This document shows, one piece after another, positions 1-35,123 of a stretch of DNA of 40,079 bases. The position numbers and the translations under genes are program-made. Origin of the DNA: Ghiorsea sp. (GTDB lineage: Bacteria; Pseudomonadota; Zetaproteobacteria; Mariprofundales; Mariprofundaceae); NCBI GenBank assembly GCA_027080505.1, contig JALWRX010000103.1, positions 1-40,079 of the forward strand, written 5' to 3'. Below the pieces are notes generated by a model. It worked only from the letters and a program-made list of their open reading frames with translations. It was not told the DNA's origin and made no database searches. Positions within the stretch are counted from its first letter, which is position 1. Each line of letters begins with the position of its first letter.

Positions 1-354
1 TTGTGCTTCTTGAGGCAAGCCCTCAAATGTGTTTTTTGTATCCATATATGCGTAGCCAAACTTCATGCCATCATCTGTAAACAGTACAGGGCCATGTTGG
101 ATATGTGATGTCACCACCCATGTTACCTTTTTCATATTTGCTAAACCCAGATCTATTTCAAATGCTGTCACCGCAGTGGAAGAAAACCATGATTTCTCAT
201 ATGCCCTATGTTCAACGGTAATTTGTGTTTTATCCCATGGATAGTTATCAATACTTTGCCGATAAATATCTTGTGCAACATCCCCGACTAGCTTTGGTGC
301 AACCACCGCAGCAACCCCAAACAAAACAATGAGTCCCAACACTATTTTTTTCAT
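1..354 (-). CDS. DUF945/YdgA-like exported protein (N-terminal part, cut by window edge)
   Basis: The reading frame is open from an ATG at 354 to the window edge and gives 118 residues. The N-terminus has two lysines and then a hydrophobic stretch (IVLGLIVLFGVAAVVA), which reads as a signal peptide or membrane anchor. After it comes a pattern typical of DUF945 (YdgA-like) proteins: a YxxSIDNYPW segment, a YEKSWFSSTA segment and a HGP motif. A purine-rich ribosome site (GGAGAGGGGGAA) lies directly before the ATG and decides the start. The family function is not well defined; members are thought to act in the envelope. The gene lies outside the island repeat and so probably belongs to the original chromosome next to tRNA-His. 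The C-terminal part is beyond the window. Confidence 0.75.
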   Translation of the reverse strand, partial: MKKIVLGLIVLFGVAAVVAPKLVGDVAQDIYRQSIDNYPWDKTQITVEHRAYEKSWFSSTAVTAFEIDLGLANMKKVTWVVTSHIQHGPVLFTDDGMKFGYAYMDTKNTFEGLPQEAQ

Positions 355-390
355 TCTTCCCCCTCTCCGACAACAGGCAATCTATGTAAA

Positions 391-419
391 ACAGTACGCT
401 GAATATATAAATAAGGCAA
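391..419 (-). promoter_or_regulatory. Possible sigma-70 promoter of the DUF945 gene
   Basis: On the minus strand a TTGCCT box (414-419) and a TACTGT box (391-396) are separated by 17 bases. They lie about 40 bases before the DUF945 start codon. Both boxes match the consensus only in part, so this is a tentative call. Confidence 0.35.
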
Positions 420-520
420 CTTTACTATAAGAAACACTGCACACCCTGTTATTATTTAACGCTTTCCATTAGGGATCAATAAACTTTCAATTCTGCCTAA
501 GCCAGCATGCGTTTGAAGCA

Positions 521-547
521 AAAAACAACTTTAGAGCCCTTGTTTTT
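521..547 (-). terminator. Weak AT-rich terminator-like hairpin
   Basis: An 8-base arm (521-528) pairs with 540-547 around an 11-base loop and runs into T residues on the minus strand. It lies about 70 bases beyond the displaced tRNA-His 3' end. It may be the original terminator of that tRNA before the island inserted, but the stem has only one G-C pair. The rest of 420-615 shows nothing I can identify. Confidence 0.25.
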
Positions 548-615
548 TAGACATCTAACCACTAAAAGATGACTGAAAATAAACTTCTAAAGAACTGATT
601 CTAAAGGATAATTAA

Positions 616-673
616 GGGAAGAAAACTGGGGTGGACGACGGGACTCGAACCCGCGACAACCGCATCACAAGCC
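616..673 (-). repeat. Displaced 3' fragment of tRNA-His: distal attachment site of the island
   Basis: This 58-base stretch matches 33526-33585, which covers the 3' half of the intact tRNA-His gene plus about 12 bases beyond its CCA. It differs by two substitutions and two single-base gaps. The match runs from the anticodon region (CATCACAAGCC on the plus strand) through the T arm, acceptor stem and encoded CCA, then stops. The D arm and 5' acceptor strand are missing, so this is not a working tRNA. This geometry is expected when a tyrosine integrase crosses over in the anticodon region: the element restores the tRNA on one side and pushes the old 3' end to the far side. The changes fit decay after release from selection. 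Confidence 0.85.
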
Positions 674-911
674 AGTCATATCTACAATATTAATACGCAT
701 TATATGTCATAAATAGCTGTTTTATAATATATATTTTACTAATCATCCCTAATTTATTGTCAATATATCCCTATTAATAACTCAATACATGGGCTCATTT
801 TGAGAAAATAGAAACTACATGTTTGAAGAATTTAGACCACCAGCTTAGACTTCTAAATTATGATTTTTACTGATGTTATACTTTTCGGCGATTCTACTCT
901 TGCTTAGCTAA
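674..911. other. AT-rich island terminus before the recombinase pair
   Basis: About 240 bases separate the distal attachment repeat from the first large recombinase. The stretch is very AT-rich and has no credible gene. It probably holds the recombinase promoter and recombinase-binding sites, but I see no clear -35/-10 pair and no convincing repeat. Confidence 0.4.
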
Positions 912-3596
912 ATGAAAAAAGTAAGAAACCCAAAGCAAACACCTAATGAAAGTAGAGAATACCAAAATCTACTATCTTTTGCACGAGCAAACAAAGGTGA
1001 TGTTATAGCAATTCGGAAAATGCTCTGGCTCATTAATGCTCCCGCACATTTATATCTACTTATTCCAGTCTTAGTAAATTTAGATAGCATTGTTCAATTA
1101 GCACAGAGACGGCATCCTATCATTTTGTATGATTCTATACTTCCCAGTCTTCGCCCTTCAATTAAATTTATACTGCAAAACACCACAAAGCTTTCAGAGG
1201 TTATTGGCGCGCACATTAACCCAAATAACCTCAAGGAAAATGCGGTCGCAATGACAAGTAGAAGTTCTACACAACACCCTTGCCATGGCTATTGCCTTAC
1301 CACCCACCCTTTGTATGCAATGATACTAGACGATCAACAAGCATTACCACGTTTTCAAGAGACATACAGCTTTTTACAACTTCACATGATTAACGCCCAT
1401 GTAAAACTCTTAGCCGATGAAAGTAGCTTATGCCAATATGAAGATGCTGCAGAAGGCAAAGACTTTTTAGGGCCACTTCACAGCTCCATCACTGGAGCCT
1501 GCAGGAAGATGTTTTCTTTAACTGGAACTAAAGCCTACATACATTTAAAGTACCTATCAAAGGTTCCTATAAATGGAAATTTTAAGTATGTTAAACCTGA
1601 CCCGACACATGTTGTCAAAGCACTTCAACACACGCTTTTACTTTGCAATTACCATGGTCTAACTTTTGTCCAAGACCTAATAGATATTAACAAACACAAG
1701 CCCTCTATTGAGTTTCAAACATCCCAGTTTGGTCGCAACATTGCAGAAATACATAAAATGTATTCAAACACACTACAGGATAAGGGTATTCGGGAATTAG
1801 GAGCATTCCTGAATCGTGTGTTCATCGACCGCGAACCTAAGAAGAGTAAAGGTTCTGGGGCTAACCGAGGGACTATCCGCTTCGAAAAACATCTCGGCTA
1901 TACCATTTTATCCTCCACTTTCTTAAAATTTCATGTTTCCAGCGAAACTGGTGATAGTTTCACAATTGATCAAATTTCTGAAGACAACCCTTCAGATAGT
2001 GATTCAGTTGAAGATCTTCTATTTGGCGATGCAGCAACAGGTCAAGATATTTACCTTGTTAAGGACAAAGAGCCTGTTTATGAACGTTCATATCTTGCAG
2101 GCTATTTAGCAGCCCAAGGACAGGTTCGAAGACTCACAATGAACAATCAATTACTCAAAGGGCGCTGGAATACCATGACTCTTCATGAAGCCTCCAGTTT
2201 GACACAGCTTTGCATCAAAGAATTTAAGAAAAACATGCAGCTTGATATGACACCAGAAAACCTATTTTCTTTGAAAACTATCGTTCTGATTGAAACCATG
2301 TTTTGGACAGGAAGCTCGCTTGAGCGAGCAATCGATTTGCATATCCGCAAAAGTACTGGGTTAGAAAATGCAGAATTAACTTACATTGAAGATAAAAGGA
2401 CTTGGAGAATTGAAAATGACTTAATAAAACGAAAAATACCACCCACCATAGAACAGGAGGCTCTATGCAATAAGATAAATTTGACCATTAAACTGCCCGA
2501 TGTAACGCAATTAGGCGGTCACTTATTAACGCTAAAGCAGTTAAAACCCGAGCACCATTTGTTTCATAAAAATGCAACCGCGAAATATAAAAAGGAAATA
2601 TCTAAATTATTAAAAAAAATGCCCGAAGGATCAAGGGTCACACTAACTAGAATATCCCATTTCCTTTTCAATTTACTCATTGACCAGACTGGTGGTGACC
2701 TCACCTCGGCTTGCTTAATTACCGCAAAGCATCACTTTTTAGGTCGTACTTCTTTATATTATGCAACTTACGATAGAAGCAAGTTGGTAAACACTTACGT
2801 GAAAGCAGTCAAAACGTACTGTGAACTTATTAACCTTGAATGTCATTCTCAGTTATTTGATATACCTACACTTAATCCCAAGCAAGAGAATATTTGGGTG
2901 GGGAGTGATTTCTGTCCAACAACTAAGTCTGTCCAAAACCTTGTTAGTCACCTAAAGCTACAAATCACAAAACGCCCAAAAACAAATAACTTAAAAAACA
3001 TCATAAAGTATCACAATGCCTTTACAATCTATACCCAACAGATGATTGCTTATGCAACGGGGATTCGTGCTATCAAGAACCCTTTTGCTAACCAAGATGA
3101 TATTGATTGGCACTCAGGGCTAGCCAGCATCTCCGACAAAGATGATGAACACCTTTACCATTCGCGAATTGCATGGCTACCTGAAGTCGTAATCAAGCAA
3201 TTAGAACACTTTATACAACACCGTAAATTGATTATTCAGCAAGCTAAAAAAATTGATAAAGGGTTAAGAACAAGTGATTTACCTTTCTTTTTCCTCCTTA
3301 ATGAAGATTTTGAACCCCTTGACTTAAAGCCATCAAGTTTATCACCATATTTAAACACTGTTTTTCCGTTACCTGCCAACGTGAACAGGCGTTATGTTCG
3401 CTCACAGCTAGCAGGTAAGGGGTGTCCTGTAGAAATTATTCAATGTTTTATGGGTCACTGGGCGCGAGGAGAAGAGCCGTGGAGTAAACACTCATCATTT
3501 TCATTTGCTGAGTACCTCAGACAAATAAGAAAGTTCATTCCACCTATTTTAAAAGAGCTCAGATGGCAGGCTCGTAAAAGCCACTTAGCCTCATGA
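912..3596 (+). CDS. Large tyrosine recombinase-like protein, first of a tandem pair
   Basis: This 894-residue protein has no obvious signal peptide or membrane segment. The last 200 residues resemble a tyrosine recombinase catalytic domain: an arginine in a TGIRAIKNP context (about residue 716), RRYVRSQ in place of the usual HxxR box (about 824), MGHW (about 847), and a tyrosine in a FAEYLRQ context (about 866). The roughly 700 residues before this are unrecognised and far longer than the arm and core-binding domains of ordinary integrases. The stop codon overlaps the next gene's start in an ATGA, so the two are probably co-translated. No strong ribosome site precedes the ATG at 912. It may belong to one of the multi-recombinase systems found at island edges, but I cannot place it in a named family. 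The base composition looks more AT-rich than the hydrogenase genes. Confidence 0.7.
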   Translation: MKKVRNPKQTPNESREYQNLLSFARANKGDVIAIRKMLWLINAPAHLYLLIPVLVNLDSIVQLAQRRHPIILYDSILPSLRPSIKFILQNTTKLSEVIGAHINPNNLKENAVAMTSRSSTQHPCHGYCLTTHPLYAMILDDQQALPRFQETYSFLQLHMINAHVKLLADESSLCQYEDAAEGKDFLGPLHSSITGACRKMFSLTGTKAYIHLKYLSKVPINGNFKYVKPDPTHVVKALQHTLLLCNYHGLTFVQDLIDINKHKPSIEFQTSQFGRNIAEIHKMYSNTLQDKGIRELGAFLNRVFIDREPKKSKGSGANRGTIRFEKHLGYTILSSTFLKFHVSSETGDSFTIDQISEDNPSDSDSVEDLLFGDAATGQDIYLVKDKEPVYERSYLAGYLAAQGQVRRLTMNNQLLKGRWNTMTLHEASSLTQLCIKEFKKNMQLDMTPENLFSLKTIVLIETMFWTGSSLERAIDLHIRKSTGLENAELTYIEDKRTWRIENDLIKRKIPPTIEQEALCNKINLTIKLPDVTQLGGHLLTLKQLKPEHHLFHKNATAKYKKEISKLLKKMPEGSRVTLTRISHFLFNLLIDQTGGDLTSACLITAKHHFLGRTSLYYATYDRSKLVNTYVKAVKTYCELINLECHSQLFDIPTLNPKQENIWVGSDFCPTTKSVQNLVSHLKLQITKRPKTNNLKNIIKYHNAFTIYTQQMIAYATGIRAIKNPFANQDDIDWHSGLASISDKDDEHLYHSRIAWLPEVVIKQLEHFIQHRKLIIQQAKKIDKGLRTSDLPFFFLLNEDFEPLDLKPSSLSPYLNTVFPLPANVNRRYVRSQLAGKGCPVEIIQCFMGHWARGEEPWSKHSSFSFAEYLRQIRKFIPPILKELRWQARKSHLAS

Positions 3597-6500
3597 TTGA
3601 CCGAACATTTATTGATACCCTAGATAACACCTCTATCCAACCCATTTGGAATATGTCTTGGTGTAATCCATCTCATGACCTAAAATTAGCAAGAGATGCA
3701 CTCATCCCTGTTTTACAGGACTGCAACTTAGAAATTGCTCACTTTATTCTAACCCTCCAAGATCAATCTGGTTTCAGTTGGGTAGATCATTTTCATTATT
3801 CGGCTATTAAACGTTATGAATTTTCTCAGGATGATACCGATAACCTTGTAGATTACTTATTCTCCATAGAACCATCATCAGTTGCCGTAAAACAAATCGT
3901 GGTATTGGGTATTGTTTTAGAACAAGGAAATCGTATTAGTGCTTGGAAGATACCACTACCACCTCACCCCTTTCTTATCCGCCCAGAATCCAACCCTTGG
4001 GCAAACAACCCACTTAAAACTGCTAAATATGGTCGGTTATATGCTGACGTAGTTACCAAGTCACTAGAACTAGGGTATTTTCTTAGTGACCAAGCTATCA
4101 TTGGCAGAATTTTAGTGGCTGCAGTTACGCGAGGTGGCTTACTACAAAGAAATGCCTTGGAAGCTTTCCTTAAACAAATGGGGCAACCCATTCATGTTAT
4201 TAATAATATTTCATCCATTGACATATCTCTACGCTATAGAGGCCAGGATGACCAAGAGCATAGGCGCTGGTTTATCGACCCTCTAACCGAGTCCCTACTG
4301 CTGCAAAGTTCATTAACCAACTTAGAATCCAACTCTGAACCATGGCCTTTCATCAAAACATTCTTCCAAGAATGTGGACTAAAGGGCGCAGTAATGCCCA
4401 AAACGATTACTAAATTCTTAAAGTGTGTGTCCGACGATATCGGACAGAAAATTACACCCTTTCTAACTCAATATGCAACACGAAGAAATACATCTCACTC
4501 TCTCACCCATGATACATGGTTGAGGCTGAACAATTTAAGTAGTACCAACCATACCACGGAAGTTTACGATATAGAGGTTCTCTCTGAATCTGGCGAGGAA
4601 AACCCAAAAACTTTTGGGCACAGTGTATGGAGTCAGCCCATCAGGGAAGCATTACGCTGCAATAAAAAATCTGATGCACTGTCTAAATTGAAAATTATCA
4701 CCAGCCAGCAAAGTTCAGATACGTTATTTAAATATATTTCTGAGTTTGCCATCCACCTCATTCAACACGGCTCCTTTTTTCAAAAAGAACTAACAATTGG
4801 CACCATTCAAAACTATGTAAGCAGGCTCACCATAAGATTATATGGTGTAGTCAGTCATATTGATATAATCACACTAAATATTGAGGCTTTCGAAGATATT
4901 TATACGCAAATACTTGAAGAAGAAGCTGGGTCTAAAAGAACCATATCCAGAATACTACGTGAGTTTCATAATTACTTAAGTTTAACCTATGAAGTTCCAA
5001 AGATTGAAAATTCAGTTTTGGGTATTGGTAACTCCCTATGCCCCGTTGATGCAAATATTATCAACCTTGAAGAGCTTCTTGCTACGAACACTGCACTCGA
5101 AAAAAGCGATTTATATTTAATTCACCAAGACCTCAACACTATTGCAAAATTAATGACCTATTTAGCCTTCTTTTGCGGCTTTAGACGCAGTGAAATTCTA
5201 AAGCTTCGCTTAATTGATATTCAAGGTAACTATGAACCAGAAATTCTGGTACGCCCACACGCATCTCGTCGGCTAAAAACAAGAAGCTCTGAACGTAGAA
5301 TACCAATCCACGGGCTTCTTCCTCACCAGGCTTTAAAAGCTTTCATGAAATGGGTTTATAAAAGACGAAAACAAGAGAGTCATACCAAATACTCGGAATA
5401 TGTATTTAGTGTACCAGAGAGAAATTATGCCTTTGTACCCGAAGAAGTCATTTTTCCAGCTATTCACCAAGCATTACGTTTTGCGACTGGTGATGAAAGG
5501 TTAAGGTTTCATAGCCTCAGGCACTCATGCGCATCATGGACTTTGCTTCGATTATTGATTTCTGAACAGGGTGCACCAAAACTTTTCTTTGAATCAATGC
5601 CAAAAACAGCCTTATGGCTCGTTAAGTCTGCAAGATTAATACAAACTTTATATGGCTCAAACCAACCCACCCGCAAACATTTGTATCATATCACTGCAAT
5701 GCTTGGTCATGCCAACCCTAGCGTTACACTAGAGCATTATATCCACTGGTGTGACATCATGCTCAACCATAGTCTAGAAAAAGCATTAAACCCCATAGAC
5801 AAAAAAGTATGGCTACGACTAAGCAATCTCCCCTCTACCACAACATACCGCCTATTAAAGCAAGGGGGTGCTTTAGAGATACAAAAAAGACTCCGCAAAC
5901 AGTACCTAGATAAAATCATAGAATTTAAAAATGAGAAAAATAAACCTCAGAAAATAGCAGCTTCTAAAACAAACCTTAGCTACCTGTTACTTATGCGAAC
6001 ATGGAAACTTCTCTACCTACATAGCAACAATGCCATCCCCATTGATACTTTAGCAGAGCGCTACGCCTTTTCCGAACAAGAGGCAAAGAAAATAGTTCGT
6101 AAAACAAAAAAACTGCTCGCAGGAAATTTGACTTCTAATAAACCCAAGTTCCGAATGATGGTATCTAAAGACGGTTACGGACTACTCTGCCCTCGCAGGC
6201 CAACCACACATCAAGGTAAGACTTTAGCTGAAGATTTTACACGCAAACTACACAACCTGCTAGCAAACTCTGATACAAAAAAAGACTTTGAGTTTCTACT
6301 AAAATGCTACCTTAACAATGCTCGCCATGCTCCTAATGAAATATTATTTAAAAATGCGAAAAACGCACAAAGATTTTATCAAATACTACAAAATATTGGC
6401 ATAGCGAAAAAGTATATATTCTTAACTTGGCATCACGGTAAAGATATCAAAGGGCTAAGCAATACGAAACGCAAACAATATTGGAGAAGTGCTTTAAAAT

Positions 6501-6673
6501 TATCAAAAAATAAAAAGATTCACTCCAAACGAATCAACAGTCGTCCATTCGGAGAGTATGGTAAATTAAGTATTCGAATACTTGATTACTTAAATGATGA
6601 CAGCACCATCACGCAATCAACTGAAGCCTTTCGGTTCGTCTTTCTCATGTACAATATAGCAGCTTCTAGGTAG
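3593..6673 (+). CDS. Large tyrosine recombinase (phage integrase family), second of a tandem pair
   Basis: This 1026-residue protein has a recognisable tyrosine recombinase core in its middle: GFRRSEIL (catalytic Arg near residue 530), HSLRHSCASW (His-x-x-Arg box near 638), and LGHANPSVTLEHY (His near 704 and the likely nucleophile Tyr near 716). A tail of about 300 residues rich in Lys and Arg follows the tyrosine, and about 500 residues precede the core. Both extensions are unusual. It would break and rejoin DNA in the cytoplasm, probably with the protein encoded just upstream, whose stop overlaps this start by four bases (ATGA). It ends facing tatA on the opposite strand. The recombinase call is firm; the target site and the need for a partner are inferred. 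Confidence 0.8.
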   Translation: MIDRTFIDTLDNTSIQPIWNMSWCNPSHDLKLARDALIPVLQDCNLEIAHFILTLQDQSGFSWVDHFHYSAIKRYEFSQDDTDNLVDYLFSIEPSSVAVKQIVVLGIVLEQGNRISAWKIPLPPHPFLIRPESNPWANNPLKTAKYGRLYADVVTKSLELGYFLSDQAIIGRILVAAVTRGGLLQRNALEAFLKQMGQPIHVINNISSIDISLRYRGQDDQEHRRWFIDPLTESLLLQSSLTNLESNSEPWPFIKTFFQECGLKGAVMPKTITKFLKCVSDDIGQKITPFLTQYATRRNTSHSLTHDTWLRLNNLSSTNHTTEVYDIEVLSESGEENPKTFGHSVWSQPIREALRCNKKSDALSKLKIITSQQSSDTLFKYISEFAIHLIQHGSFFQKELTIGTIQNYVSRLTIRLYGVVSHIDIITLNIEAFEDIYTQILEEEAGSKRTISRILREFHNYLSLTYEVPKIENSVLGIGNSLCPVDANIINLEELLATNTALEKSDLYLIHQDLNTIAKLMTYLAFFCGFRRSEILKLRLIDIQGNYEPEILVRPHASRRLKTRSSERRIPIHGLLPHQALKAFMKWVYKRRKQESHTKYSEYVFSVPERNYAFVPEEVIFPAIHQALRFATGDERLRFHSLRHSCASWTLLRLLISEQGAPKLFFESMPKTALWLVKSARLIQTLYGSNQPTRKHLYHITAMLGHANPSVTLEHYIHWCDIMLNHSLEKALNPIDKKVWLRLSNLPSTTTYRLLKQGGALEIQKRLRKQYLDKIIEFKNEKNKPQKIAASKTNLSYLLLMRTWKLLYLHSNNAIPIDTLAERYAFSEQEAKKIVRKTKKLLAGNLTSNKPKFRMMVSKDGYGLLCPRRPTTHQGKTLAEDFTRKLHNLLANSDTKKDFEFLLKCYLNNARHAPNEILFKNAKNAQRFYQILQNIGIAKKYIFLTWHHGKDIKGLSNTKRKQYWRSALKLSKNKKIHSKRINSRPFGEYGKLSIRILDYLNDDSTITQSTEAFRFVFLMYNIAASR

Positions 6674-6731: not shown

Positions 6732-6753
6732 AGTTAGAGAACAGAGGCATAAA

Positions 6754-6912
6754 CTATAAATCTGCCTTACCCTCATCTGTTTTAATATTTGTACGGAAAC
6801 TTTTAATACCTTTCGCAAGCCCTTCGCCAAGCCCTGGCAACTTTTTCGCACCAAACAATATCATCACAATCACTAAAATAAGTATTAACTCTGTTGTTCC
6901 TAAACCAAACAT
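6754..6912 (-). CDS. tatA: Twin-arginine translocase subunit TatA/TatE
   Basis: This short gene encodes 52 residues, from an ATG at 6912 to a TAG at 6754. The sequence starts [21 protein letters not shown], a membrane helix with the usual leading FG and the Glu found in TatA/E. It continues with the family hinge [20 protein letters not shown] and a short charged tail. TatA forms the pore-like part of the Sec-independent export system for folded proteins. The gene follows the nickel permease by 17 bases and is probably co-transcribed with it. Placing a Tat component at the end of a hydrogenase locus makes sense because the small subunit HupS carries a twin-arginine signal. No tatB or tatC is present, so the host must supply them. 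The C-terminal tail is shorter than in most TatA proteins and closer to TatE. Confidence 0.9.
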
Positions 6913-31254: not shown

Positions 31255-31527
31255 TTACTCTGCTCCAACCACATAACAACCAAAGTGATTTGTTAACTGT
31301 TCATTGATTTCAGATATCATTAAATGCAGCATTTCTAGACGCTCTAAATCTTGGTAGAAGTGATAGTGATCCATTACCCAAGACTTTATAGCAGCATGGT
31401 TCGAATAAGCATTAGGGTAACCAAGTGCCAACACAAACTCTCTACCTCCATTGATATTCAGCTTAAGTATAATTGAAAAAGCCAAGTCATTTATGATGCG
31501 GCTATAGTTTATATATACATCACTCAT
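31255..31527 (-). CDS. Small hypothetical protein behind the integrase
   Basis: I do not recognise this 90-residue protein. It has no signal peptide or clear motif and is rich in Leu, Ile and His, with a likely helical C-terminal half (HFYQDLERLEMLHLMISEINEQL). Its ATG overlaps the integrase stop as ATGA and GGAGGAGAAAGC precedes it, so it is a real, translationally coupled gene. The position suggests a role in island maintenance or excision, which is only inference. Confidence 0.65.
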   Translation of the reverse strand: MSDVYINYSRIINDLAFSIILKLNINGGREFVLALGYPNAYSNHAAIKSWVMDHYHFYQDLERLEMLHLMISEINEQLTNHFGCYVVGAE

Positions 31528-32696
31528 ACGCTTTCTCCTCCATGCTGCTTTAGTAACCTTTCGAAGGCTGAACCATCTTGTCGGGTCAGGTTAGGGATAT
31601 ACCTGGAGTATGTGCGAAACAGCATCTCACTTGTGGTATGACCCATCTGGCGAGCAATCCACTCAGGGCTTTCACCCGCTGCTAACCATAGTGTCGCTGC
31701 TGTATGCCGTGTTTGGTATGGTCGCCTAGCCCTTAGTCCTAAGTGACGCAGTAAAGGATGCCAAACTCGCCTTGTAACATTTCGATGGCTCAGTGTACCA
31801 CCCTGCGTATTACAAAAGACGAAATCATTTTGCCCCGTTGCAGTCTGTTGCTCCTTTAAAGCTCTATAGACTACATCAGACATATCAATCGCACGGTATG
31901 AGCCATCATTCTTGGTATAAATCAGTTCATCCATCACCAATGCCTGACGAATCAGGATTTGTCGTCGCTCAAAATCTACATACTGCCATTGCAGCCCATC
32001 AATTTCTGATGTGCGCATCGCAGTAAAGAATCGAACAGTGTAATAATGCTTAAAGTCAGGGCGCACCCGATTTAAAATTAACATCACTTCTTCCAAGGTG
32101 AATGGCTCAACATCAGTACGAGGAACTTTAAGGGACTTGATTCCATGATAAGGCGAGCTAAAATCAAACCTGTTAGCTGCTTCATTGAGTATCATGCGCA
32201 ATGGCGTCATGATATGGTTGATTCGTGAAGCTGATAGAGATTTTCCACTTCGGTTCTGAACTTTGGCGAGAGAAGACCGAAATGCGAGAATATCTGTCTT
32301 GGTGATGCAGCTAACGCCTTTTTCACCAAACCATTCTAATAAATACTGGTCTAGAATATCCTGAACCCCAAGCTTATGGGTCTTGCGCCACTGAATACTC
32401 ATTTCATCATACCAAAGTGCGGCAAACTCTTTAAATGTAGGAGCATTTGATAGCCTTGTATGAATCCTGCTTTGTTGGTGTTCAAATTGTTGAACACGAG
32501 GGCTACTCGGAAAATATGTAGCATAATCAAATGCTCCCAAGGTCATCTCAGCTTCCATCTTATCTAAAACACGCTGTAATTTCTTGCGATTGGCGGGAGT
32601 GTCTGTAAGTTGAGTATACTCTCTACATCTCCTGCCCATATACTGAAAATCAAAGAAAAGTTTTTGATTATTACTTCTTGCTCTTACACTAGCCAT
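31524..32696 (-). CDS. Island integrase (tyrosine recombinase)
   Basis: This 390-residue protein begins with an Arm DNA-binding domain of the DUF3596 type (NQKLFFDFQYMGRRCREYTQL). A core-binding domain follows (about 85-190), then a catalytic domain with AMRTSEIDGLQW (Arg), YTKNDGSYRAI (Lys), PYQTRHTAATLWL (box II with Arg and His), and QMGHTTSEMLFRTYSRY (His and nucleophile Tyr). All catalytic residues are present, with Tyr in place of the first box II His, as is common in this group. It lies near the 3' end of tRNA-His and most likely catalysed insertion there. I chose the ATG at 32696; a GTG at 32708 would add four residues and overlap the excisionase gene more. Confidence 0.93.
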   Translation of the reverse strand: MASVRARSNNQKLFFDFQYMGRRCREYTQLTDTPANRKKLQRVLDKMEAEMTLGAFDYATYFPSSPRVQQFEHQQSRIHTRLSNAPTFKEFAALWYDEMSIQWRKTHKLGVQDILDQYLLEWFGEKGVSCITKTDILAFRSSLAKVQNRSGKSLSASRINHIMTPLRMILNEAANRFDFSSPYHGIKSLKVPRTDVEPFTLEEVMLILNRVRPDFKHYYTVRFFTAMRTSEIDGLQWQYVDFERRQILIRQALVMDELIYTKNDGSYRAIDMSDVVYRALKEQQTATGQNDFVFCNTQGGTLSHRNVTRRVWHPLLRHLGLRARRPYQTRHTAATLWLAAGESPEWIARQMGHTTSEMLFRTYSRYIPNLTRQDGSAFERLLKQHGGESV

Positions 32697-32925
32697 GGCA
32701 CACACCACCGTTACCCATAGGAATTATTACGTTCTGCGATTGTGACTGTTCATACATATCTTGCTCAATGGTTTCCCAGATATATAAAATCTTTCTTCCA
32801 CCAAATGGACGGAAATAATGAACGCCTTCAAGCAGCACCGAATCTTTTAAGCTGTCTCGAATAGTTCTTGGATCATATTTTATGCGCTGTGATAATTCCT
32901 CTGTTGTTAAATATGTTTCATTCAT
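32689..32925 (-). CDS. Excisionase-like small HTH protein
   Basis: This 78-residue protein has a winged-helix DNA-binding look: YLTTEELSQRIKYDPRTIRDSLK, then a FGGRKILYIWETIE wing. This pattern resembles Xis-type proteins that direct excision. I chose the ATG at 32925, with GGAG eight bases upstream; an ATG at 32967 has no site before it. It overlaps the start of the integrase gene, the usual arrangement for xis and int. Confidence 0.75.
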   Translation of the reverse strand: MNETYLTTEELSQRIKYDPRTIRDSLKDSVLLEGVHYFRPFGGRKILYIWETIEQDMYEQSQSQNVIIPMGNGGVCHG

Positions 32926-32946
32926 AATTTTTCTCCACTTAAAGTA

Positions 32947-32978
32947 TTCATATGAACTAATTTTCATTCATATATGAA
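32947..32978. repeat. Two palindromes in the xis leader
   Basis: TTCATATGAA (32947-32956) and TTCATATATGAA (32967-32978) are perfect palindromes with the same half-site, 10 bases apart, just upstream of the excisionase ATG. They may be protein-binding sites or mRNA structures in the leader. Confidence 0.4.
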
Positions 32979-33093: not shown

Positions 33094-33330
33094 ATGATTA
33101 GAATACGATTAACGCAGATGCTTGATGATAAAAGTTTCGAGGAAAAACGAAGGATTTCTCTCAAAGAGGTTGCACAAAAGACAGGGTTATCTCAGCCAAC
33201 TTTATCACGAGTTTCTAATATTCCAGGGTACAACACGAATACAGATACAATTAATGCGTTATGTAAATACTTTAATTGTTCACCAGGTGAACTTTTAGAG
33301 TTTTACCCTGATGAAAATGATTCAAAATAA
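33094..33330 (+). CDS. XRE/Cro-CI type regulator of the island
   Basis: This 78-residue protein is almost entirely a Cro/CI helix-turn-helix domain: ISLKEVAQKTGLSQPTLSRVSN, then INALCKYFNCSPGELLEF, which is standard for small XRE regulators. It is divergent from the excisionase and integrase genes, with an operator-like region in between, so it most likely represses or balances excision. No protease or dimer domain is present, so it is more Cro-like than CI-like. Confidence 0.9.
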   Translation: MIRIRLTQMLDDKSFEEKRRISLKEVAQKTGLSQPTLSRVSNIPGYNTNTDTINALCKYFNCSPGELLEFYPDENDSK

Positions 33331-33525: not shown

Positions 33526-33585
33526 GGGAAGAACAACTGGGGTGGACGACGGGGCTCGAACCCGCGACCACCGGCATCACAAGCC
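33526..33585 (-). repeat. Proximal attachment repeat of the island (in tRNA-His)
   Basis: This is the right-hand copy of the direct repeat also found at 616-673. It covers the tRNA-His 3' half from the anticodon stem to CCA and about 12 bases beyond. The likely crossover is in or near the anticodon region, where the two copies stop matching. Confidence 0.85.
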
Positions 33586-33614
33586 GGGGCTCTACCAACT
33601 GAGCTACGTCCACC
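33538..33614 (-). tRNA. tRNA-His (GTG)
   Basis: The minus strand folds as a full cloverleaf: acceptor GTGGACG/CGTCCAC with discriminator C and encoded CCA (33538-33540), an extra 5' G at 33614 as required for tRNA-His, D arm AGCTCAGTTGGTAGAGC, anticodon loop TTGTGAT with GTG, and T arm with GGTTCGAGCC. It is the last gene of the tRNA-Pro, tRNA-Arg, tRNA-His set and the insertion target of the island. Confidence 0.97.
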
Positions 33615-33638
33615 ATAGTTCTTGAAACGGTTGCCGAA

Positions 33639-33715
<77 letters not shown>

Positions 33716-33746
33716 TTAATTCCAGCAGACCAAGGTTGTTTTTAAA

Positions 33747-33823
<77 letters not shown>

Positions 33824-33859
33824 ACATTTAAAACTTCTCCCAACTTTGGAAGGCGGCGA

Positions 33860-33888
33860 AACTTAGGGATTAATTGCCTATCCGTCAA
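33860..33888 (-). promoter_or_regulatory. Sigma-70 promoter of the tRNA operon
   Basis: On the minus strand TTGACG (33883-33888) and TAAGTT (33860-33865) are 17 bases apart. A GC-rich stretch (TCGCCGCC) follows the -10 box, as in stable RNA promoters under stringent control. Confidence 0.65.
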
Positions 33889-33963
33889 CCGCTTTTTATC
33901 CCTTGCAATATCCAGCACGATTATGAATAGTCAGTCTCACTGATAACAAAGGAGAAGTTCTCT

Positions 33964-34473
33964 GTGAACAATGCTTTTATCGCTTTGGGTGGAAACCTTG
34001 GCGATGTAAAACAAACATTCCAAACAGCATGTGATGCATTAAAAGAAACATGCAAAATCATTACAATATCCAAGCTTTATCACACGTCTGCTTTAACCAT
34101 GCCAGACAGTGCACCACAACCTGACTATTGGAATGCCGCCATTCATGTGCAAACGCAACTGCCTGCCGACACCTTACTGGCTGAATTGCATAGAGTTGAA
34201 GCACTGCATCATCGCAAGCGCATTGAACATTGGGGTTCACGAACATTAGACCTTGATCTAATTGCTTATGAACAACTTATATCAACGCATGCTGAGTTAA
34301 AACTACCCCACCCTGAAACACAGTCTCGGCTATTTGTCTTGCAACCACTCATGGACATTGCACCATTCTGGGTACATCCTGTCACTGGAGAGAGCCTCTC
34401 TACAATGATAACACACCTTACGGATGCAGGTGAAAAACTGCACAAAGGAGAAGCATGGCAACTTCAACATTAA
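33964..34473 (+). CDS. folK: HPPK, 2-amino-4-hydroxy-6-hydroxymethyldihydropteridine pyrophosphokinase
   Basis: FolK transfers pyrophosphate from ATP to the pterin in folate synthesis. The 169 residues begin with FIALGGNLGD (ATP/pterin-binding start), and contain SKLYHTSALTM and the signature WGSRTLDLDLIAY near residue 98. The start is GTG at 33964 with AAGGAG nine bases upstream. It overlaps the next gene by 19 bases. Length is usual for the family. Confidence 0.95.
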   Translation: MNNAFIALGGNLGDVKQTFQTACDALKETCKIITISKLYHTSALTMPDSAPQPDYWNAAIHVQTQLPADTLLAELHRVEALHHRKRIEHWGSRTLDLDLIAYEQLISTHAELKLPHPETQSRLFVLQPLMDIAPFWVHPVTGESLSTMITHLTDAGEKLHKGEAWQLQH

Positions 34474-35105
34474 ACCTCAACCACATTGCTATTGAAGGTG
34501 GTATTGGTGTAGGCAAAACAACTTTAGCCCAAGGATTAGCAACCAAGCTCAATGCTAACCTTCTCTTAGAAGACATTGATGACAACCCCTTTTTGGAGCT
34601 ATTTTACCAAGACCCTGAACGCCATGGTTTATCCGTTCAGTTATCTTTTTTATTTTCTCGCCTCAAGCAATGGCAAAGCTTAGCCCAGCAAGACCTCTTC
34701 CAATCCATGATGATTAGTGATTATATTTTTGCCAAAGACAGACTTTTTGCTATGACCAATTTATCTGATGAAGAGTTTGCTTTGTACAACCAAGTTGCGC
34801 AGGCTGTCACCTTTGACTTACCCAAGCCTGACCTTGTGATTTACTTGCAATCATCGCCTGACGTTGCCCTTAAACGCATACAGCAGCGCAATCGTAACAT
34901 GGAAAAAGGTGTCAATTTGGACTACCTCAAACAAGTTACCGAAACCTTTGATAAGTTTTTCTTTCACTACCAAGAAACACCTTTATTGGTAGTTCAAACC
35001 GATCGCATCAATTTTGCAGAACGCCCCGAAGCATTGGATATGCTGATTGCACGCATCACACAAATGGGCAGAGGCACAGAGTTTTGGGCTGATTATACAG
35101 AATAA
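34455..35105 (+). CDS. Deoxynucleoside kinase (dGK/dCK family)
   Basis: This 216-residue kinase has a P-loop EGGIGVGKTTLA near residue 14, DIDDNPFL in the position of the family's ENP-like motif, a SDYIFAKDRLFA segment with the DRS-like motif, and a lid region with LKRIQQRNRNMEKG. It would phosphorylate deoxynucleosides for salvage. Pairing with folK is common in proteobacteria. Which deoxynucleoside it prefers cannot be read from sequence. The ATG at 34455 follows AAAGGAG. Confidence 0.9.
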   Translation: MATSTLNLNHIAIEGGIGVGKTTLAQGLATKLNANLLLEDIDDNPFLELFYQDPERHGLSVQLSFLFSRLKQWQSLAQQDLFQSMMISDYIFAKDRLFAMTNLSDEEFALYNQVAQAVTFDLPKPDLVIYLQSSPDVALKRIQQRNRNMEKGVNLDYLKQVTETFDKFFFHYQETPLLVVQTDRINFAERPEALDMLIARITQMGRGTEFWADYTE

Positions 35106-35123
35106 AAGTCAAGAGGAATTCAA

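Follow-up and report, generated by a model that had tools for sequence, protein, structure and literature searches.

What do two giant, overlapping recombinase-like genes do at the edge of a genomic island, and are they what moves it? The question is raised by a 40,079-nucleotide stretch of a Ghiorsea sp. genome (Zetaproteobacteria; GenBank assembly GCA_027080505.1, contig JALWRX010000103.1, positions 1 to 40,079; hereafter, the window), in which gene A (912–3596, plus strand, 894 amino acids) overlaps gene B (3593–6673, plus strand, 1026 amino acids) at one end of an island carrying [NiFe]-hydrogenase genes. An initial annotation described both as tyrosine recombinases of unusual size and raised the possibility that they form a nested mobile element or are the real mover of the cargo. 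We find that A and B represent a genuine two-gene recombinase family whose members are always paired. The best reading of this locus is that A–B is a self-contained paired module riding a tRNA integrative element, an extra recombination module of the island and not its tRNA integrase. More generally, we put at about 0.5 the probability that A–B is an obligate-partner site-specific recombinase that forms the core of an exchangeable module, usually together with a small gene X, at the ends of mobile elements.

Both reading frames are uninterrupted and overlap by ATGA at 3593–3596, which bears out the sizes and overlap first described. The Pfam Phage_integrase profile matches B at residues 514–649 (E = 1.4e-9) and A, below threshold, at residues 694–771 (E = 0.13), in agreement with the placement of the catalytic core at the C terminus of A and in the centre of B by the initial annotation. 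A search of NCBIfam gave no specific family name for either protein.

We surveyed 78 Mariprofundales genomes and scanned 84,980 species genomes for relatives. In the first set, these occur as overlapping tandem pairs in constant order, the first gene always A-like and the second always B-like; two further divergent pairs lie in the same genome as the window (contigs C59 and C54). The larger scan returned 75 loci, about 50 of them with giant B genes. Among non-redundant B genes of 700 amino acids or more with room upstream (54 in all), A is directly adjacent (gap of −244 to +44 nucleotides) or fused in 49; in the other five, A lies 127–411 bp away (L028, L032 and L070), is separated by an insertion (L064) or is broken (L080). 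Natural A–B fusions are found in Thiomicrorhabdus marina (L078, 6245–11668; 1807 amino acids) and Acinetobacter (L037, 10597–15651; 1684 amino acids). Distances among A proteins track those among B proteins (r = 0.92, permutation p 0.0005), and ratios of non-synonymous to synonymous substitution rates (dN/dS) over six pairs of relatives are 0.15–0.35 for A and 0.14–0.21 for B.

The pair occurs in Gamma-, Beta-, Zeta- and Alphaproteobacteria, Acidithiobacillia, Nitrospirae and other groups, and most of the records seen label its genes ‘integrase’ or ‘hypothetical protein’. We found no relatives in phage genomes. The family is apparently undescribed: no published description of the pair was found in literature in which subscription journals are thinly covered. 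Acinetobacter GR13 plasmids have been reported to carry a ‘putative tyrosine recombinase’ gene, tyr13, as part of their core (PMC9455709); it may or may not be the fused AB gene.

To what extent are these proteins equipped for recombination? AlphaFold 2 models were built from 37-row alignments that excluded plasmid-record rows (mean pLDDT confidence of 75 for A and 82 for B) and compared with the PDB by Foldseek. B carries a complete catalytic domain (residues 492–731; 5066–5785, plus strand) in which Arg531, Lys562, His640, Arg643, His706 and Tyr716 are each present in all 37 aligned proteins. With these residues in the canonical order and a Foldseek probability of 1.00, including matches to XerH, integron IntI and Tn1549 Int, B is a member of the tyrosine recombinase superfamily. 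Its model also predicts, from secondary structure, a degenerate catalytic-like fold nearer the N terminus (approximately residues 140–312; 4010–4528, plus strand), in which the family alignment has no conserved catalytic residues. The C-terminal tail (approximately residues 737–1026; 5801–6670, plus strand) has no assigned family and is missing from shorter B subfamilies.

A is less orthodox. The best PDB matches of its modelled catalytic fold, including the high-probability ones, are tyrosine recombinases (probability up to 1.00, with a best E value of only 0.015), and two successive catalytic-like folds are predicted. The second (approximately residues 660–890; 2889–3581, plus strand) contains Arg719, Lys743, Asn823, Arg826, His849 and Ser861. 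Although the 37 aligned A proteins are only 14–26% identical to that of the window, Arg719 and Lys743 are strictly invariant, and His849 is present in 36/36, Arg826 and Ser861 in 35/36 each and Asn823 in 33/36. The RRYVR motif first taken for the HxxR site of A was out of register; the true equivalent is Asn823-Val-Asn-Arg826. No conserved tyrosine occurs at the normal place for the nucleophile, 9–11 residues after His-III, where Tyr868 is present in 19 of 37 sequences only. The place of the tyrosine helix of other recombinases is occupied instead by residues 853–861 (3468–3494), in which Gly853 and Ser861 are each found in 35 of 36 sequences, mostly within GEEPWxxxS.

The only conserved tyrosine of A, Tyr617 (codon 2760–2762, plus strand; 37/37), instead precedes Arg719 and thus the rest of the active-site residues. 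It is the only such residue kept in the first catalytic-like fold (approximately residues 412–640; 2145–2831, plus strand) and, in the models, sits between a short preceding helix and a long following one, as Tyr716 does in B. In 17 further A sequences, some of them close to members of the 37, Tyr617, Arg719, Lys743, Arg826 and His849 are kept without exception. The assignment of the first fold rests mainly on predicted secondary structure, and by profile it resembles other catalytic domains weakly (E of 0.001–0.03; hhalign probability of 2–20%). A short A from Sphingobium (339 amino acids) retains only the part that runs from just before Tyr617 to the end of the second fold, and the DNA upstream yielded no N-terminal half. 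When the Tyr617 segment was moved behind the second fold in a permuted-profile test, random segments did equally well in 17 of 60 and 7 of 60 cases.

This distribution suggests that the active site of A is split or permuted, with the conserved tyrosine in the first fold and Arg/Lys/Arg/His in the second. We do not favour A as a plain dead recombinase, because these residues are invariant or nearly so. Tentatively, and with more doubt than confidence, we propose that A is a working recombinase with a circularly permuted site in cis (Tyr617 with Arg719, Lys743, Arg826 and His849) and that A and B jointly drive a new class of mobile element. Under a split-site reading, A would do within one polypeptide what Flp does between subunits. 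Loss of the catalytic Arg, His or Tyr had been named as a possible refutation of the initial reading, and it applies by half: B is complete, and A has everything except the histidine of HxxR, in a changed order. The N-terminal regions, initially left unexplained, are now partly accounted for by the degenerate catalytic-like fold predicted in each protein; the N-terminal ~400 residues of A and the ~290-residue tail of B remain without assignment.

Did A–B put the island where it is? Probably not. An intact tRNA-His gene (33538–33613, minus strand) marks the right boundary and proximal attachment site, and a copy of its 3′ half (630–675, minus strand), diverged from the intact gene in alignment, marks the left boundary and distal attachment site. 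A 22-bp probe matches at 630 and 33541, with no matches in shuffled sequences. In the relative G027 the site is empty: sequence corresponding to window positions 1–673 (89% identity) meets that of 33526–35106 (97%) at a single intact tRNA-His, so the island is approximately 33 kb long and contains A–B approximately 240 bp from its distal end. Beside the intact tRNA lies a conventional P4-type tyrosine integrase of 394 amino acids with an Arm-DNA-bind_2 domain (31524–32708, minus strand; here, I), which is the likely island integrase and is also found near tRNA-His in relatives G021 and G023. The locus thus has an integrase by the intact tRNA, a 3′ tRNA fragment at the far end and an empty site in a relative, the features of a tRNA integrative element. 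Insertion into tRNA-His is most likely explained by I, and the suggestion that A–B is the real mover of the cargo is not supported. The pair may be a second mobile element nested in the island. Within the window we found no separate termini for A–B, and repeat searches at its ends were unconvincing.

Around I are genes for a 90-amino-acid protein (31255–31527, minus strand) whose homologues stand beside related integrases, a small AlpA/excisionase-like protein of 92 amino acids conserved upstream of I (32689–32967, minus strand) and a helix-turn-helix protein of 78 amino acids conserved beside it (33094–33330, plus strand). The cargo (6930–30940, minus strand; assigned by Pfam) comprises structural, sensor, maturation, nickel-uptake and regulatory genes for [NiFe]-hydrogenase. 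It opens, approximately 75 bp past the B stop codon, with a short frame that is TatA-like (6746–6910, minus strand), and relative G009 has tatABC-like genes between nicO and X-A-B. The G+C content of the pair (0.37–0.40, against 0.39–0.46 in the cargo) is in line with a separate origin. In Ghiorsea bivora, a hydrogenase cluster has been described as ‘surrounded by an integrase and a recombinase’ (PMC6501319); given the Mariprofundaceae host and the hydrogenase cargo, it is in all likelihood the same island or a sister of it, and the accessible passages of that report contain no analysis of the recombinases. In relative G034, a contig (C127; L034, 3–1184) joins the A N terminus, the tRNA-His 3′-half site, the helix-turn-helix gene and the hydrogenase end, with I missing, so that both island ends meet across the attachment site, an arrangement expected of an excised circle or tandem array. 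A circular contig was considered and rejected: it has no terminal overlap and its other end enters chromosomal glycogen genes. The junction may therefore reflect a tandem arrangement or rearrangement, not an excised circle.

If I inserted the island, is A–B merely its accessory, a second recombinase pair for excision, directionality or cargo handling? This is the leading rival, and we judge it fairly unlikely. The association is close. Of the 78 Mariprofundales genomes, 7 carry the I clade (E at most 1e-60), all of them among the 13 with A or B matches (hypergeometric p ~6.5e-7, relatedness ignored), and 8 of 9 copies share a contig with A–B or its remains. I is within the fetched stretch of 23 of 57 pair loci, B and I distances are correlated (r = 0.61), and A–B and I bracket the island of the window at opposite ends, as they do around hydrogenase genes in G009. 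The order and orientation of I relative to A–B nevertheless vary among loci, and in the same 15–16 loci mean identity is approximately 53% for I compared with 18–19% for A and B; divergence is far faster in the giant pair than in the integrase that accompanies it. The module also occurs without I. On contig C54 (L027, 4501–11392), X-A-B adjoins a large serine integrase whose 3′ end runs into tRNA-Glu; the same module here accompanies a chemically unrelated integrase. X-A-B without I is also found on Vibrio and Acinetobacter plasmids and by phage-tail-like genes in an IMG/VR contig. The closest B outside the host genus (46% identity) lies in an IMG/VR sequence (L143, 73–10892), where it stands with X and A downstream of genes reading like P2-type tail and late-control genes.

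In Photobacterium (L073 and L074), a common 8.2-kb X-A-B-I block has different flanks, and in Polynucleobacter and in L077/L086 similarity breaks within approximately 40 bp of the B stop codon. X-AB of the Acinetobacter plasmids has a sharp left end approximately 150 bp upstream of X, beyond which flanks differ, and most of these plasmids diverge between approximately 14 bp upstream of the AB stop codon and a few hundred bp downstream of it. The cargo beyond varies, from bacteriophage exclusion (BREX) genes to HNH/ATPase and phenol hydroxylase genes. The right end of the Acinetobacter module was not found, and no conserved motif follows the B stop in the compared loci. A terminal inverted repeat of the Acinetobacter module was considered and rejected, since both inverted matches (L152 and L155) lie at a transposase gene of the IS6 insertion sequence family. 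Given the varied integrases, plasmids and flanks, the module behaves as a unit that is not tied to any one integrase. The initial annotation had proposed that homologues always paired at element edges with varied cargo would define a mobile system. The profile search and neighbour check found this arrangement, with A or its remains near B even in the five non-adjacent cases, and by that test A–B defines a mobile system.

Contig C59 holds a second X-A-B-I element (~28870–47730), with type I restriction genes, that is shared with contig C52 of G027 (L026, L033 and L138). The two are 99.97% identical over 18.9 kb, whereas the island flanks of the same genomes are 89–97% identical, a difference that suggests recent transfer. 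Immediately beyond the part they share are type III CRISPR-like genes.

Could the module instead maintain or protect its element, by multimer resolution, a partition-like role or defence, rather than move it? The small gene X (~140–320 amino acids) stands before most pairs, although not in the window, and two X proteins have weak ParB-N-like or helix-turn-helix-like matches. The module is stably present at a fixed position in many plasmids, and defence genes such as BREX and type I restriction are frequent neighbours. We consider this reading improbable: PADLOC models gave no match, cargo changes directly past B, and several recombinase-like domains with invariant active-site residues exceed what a resolvase needs.

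We therefore return to A–B as a paired recombinase at element ends. B would act by ordinary tyrosine recombinase chemistry (RKHRHY), with extra N- and C-terminal parts, and A would be its double-domain partner, its putative phosphate-binding residues in the second fold lying apart from the only conserved tyrosine in the first. The two would probably bind the recombination site jointly, as is thought for the paired proteins of SE and GInt elements, and would cut and rejoin the A-side end of the element, with the cargo lying beyond B. In the window, a module without X would be carried by the 33-kb hydrogenase island that I integrated into tRNA-His. Several points weigh against this proposal. No recombination has been observed, and repeat searches found no right terminus or target site of A–B itself. 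The restriction of the I clade, among Mariprofundales genomes, to those with A–B means that A–B could act as an accessory to I. The boundaries seen in Acinetobacter belong to a distant branch whose genes are fused and plasmid-borne. In relative G021 the island persists without A and with a truncated B, and the absence of X means that the copy in the window may not be active. The last two points, with the diverged tRNA-His repeat, would also fit a decayed remnant without present function. We regard this as very improbable, given two intact long reading frames, purifying selection across the family and, over the 90 codons comparable with G034, a dN/dS of 0.11, with dS near saturation.

A widespread, always-paired recombinase family moves with metabolic and defence cargo. 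The pair is a marker for element ends and offers model plasmids open to test.

How does A–B compare with known multi-recombinase systems? The initial annotation could not match it to one, and for the gamma-mobile-trio and SE proteins this stands. Gamma-mobile-trio islands (GmtX/Y/Z; Mahata 2024), as described in citing work, share a three-gene layout and defence-rich cargo, but the GmtY model (NF040693) spans 441 positions, an ordinary size. Membership was rejected: no NCBIfam model named for this system matched A or B members at E of 0.1–1, nor were A, B and two X proteins matched (GmtX and GmtZ compared by model name only). GmtY has a weak, below-cut-off match on another contig of the same genome. 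RIT elements and Tn554-like tnpABC (PMC3414803, PMC8138268) also have adjacent, overlapping tyrosine recombinase genes, but RIT elements have three recombinases, in which catalytic motifs may be present. In Tn554-like elements a long recombinase is paired with one of normal size; unlike in A–B, the long protein has 611–828 amino acids and its partner approximately 350.

Two systems resemble A–B in layout, SE (strand-biased circularizing integrative) elements (intA-tfp-intB-srap; PMC10214605) and GInt elements (ginABCD; PMC5385486). SE elements have an overlapping operon of recombinase-fold genes at one element end, variable cargo and a non-canonical Tfp directly before a large catalytic IntB, much as A precedes B. 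However, A keeps Arg/Lys/Arg/His whereas Tfp is reported to lack RHRY, no Srap-like gene was found, and homology was rejected because IntA, Tfp, IntB and Srap of pAQU1 reached a best E of only 0.03 against A and B profiles. GInt elements, compared by description only, likewise have a recombinase operon at one end, cargo that begins right at the last core gene's stop codon and a recombinase (GinC) whose active site is incomplete. They differ in having three recombinases and GinD, the incomplete recombinase being third, in contrast to the two genes of the window. As far as sequences could be compared, A–B resembles SE and GInt in arrangement but fails the tests that could be made. If the tyrosine of A does work from the preceding domain, this would be a new tyrosine-recombinase active-site arrangement and would show how incomplete partners such as Tfp and GinC might contribute. 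We rate A–B as a variant of multi-recombinase mobile modules; a split active site, if real, would make it more than that.

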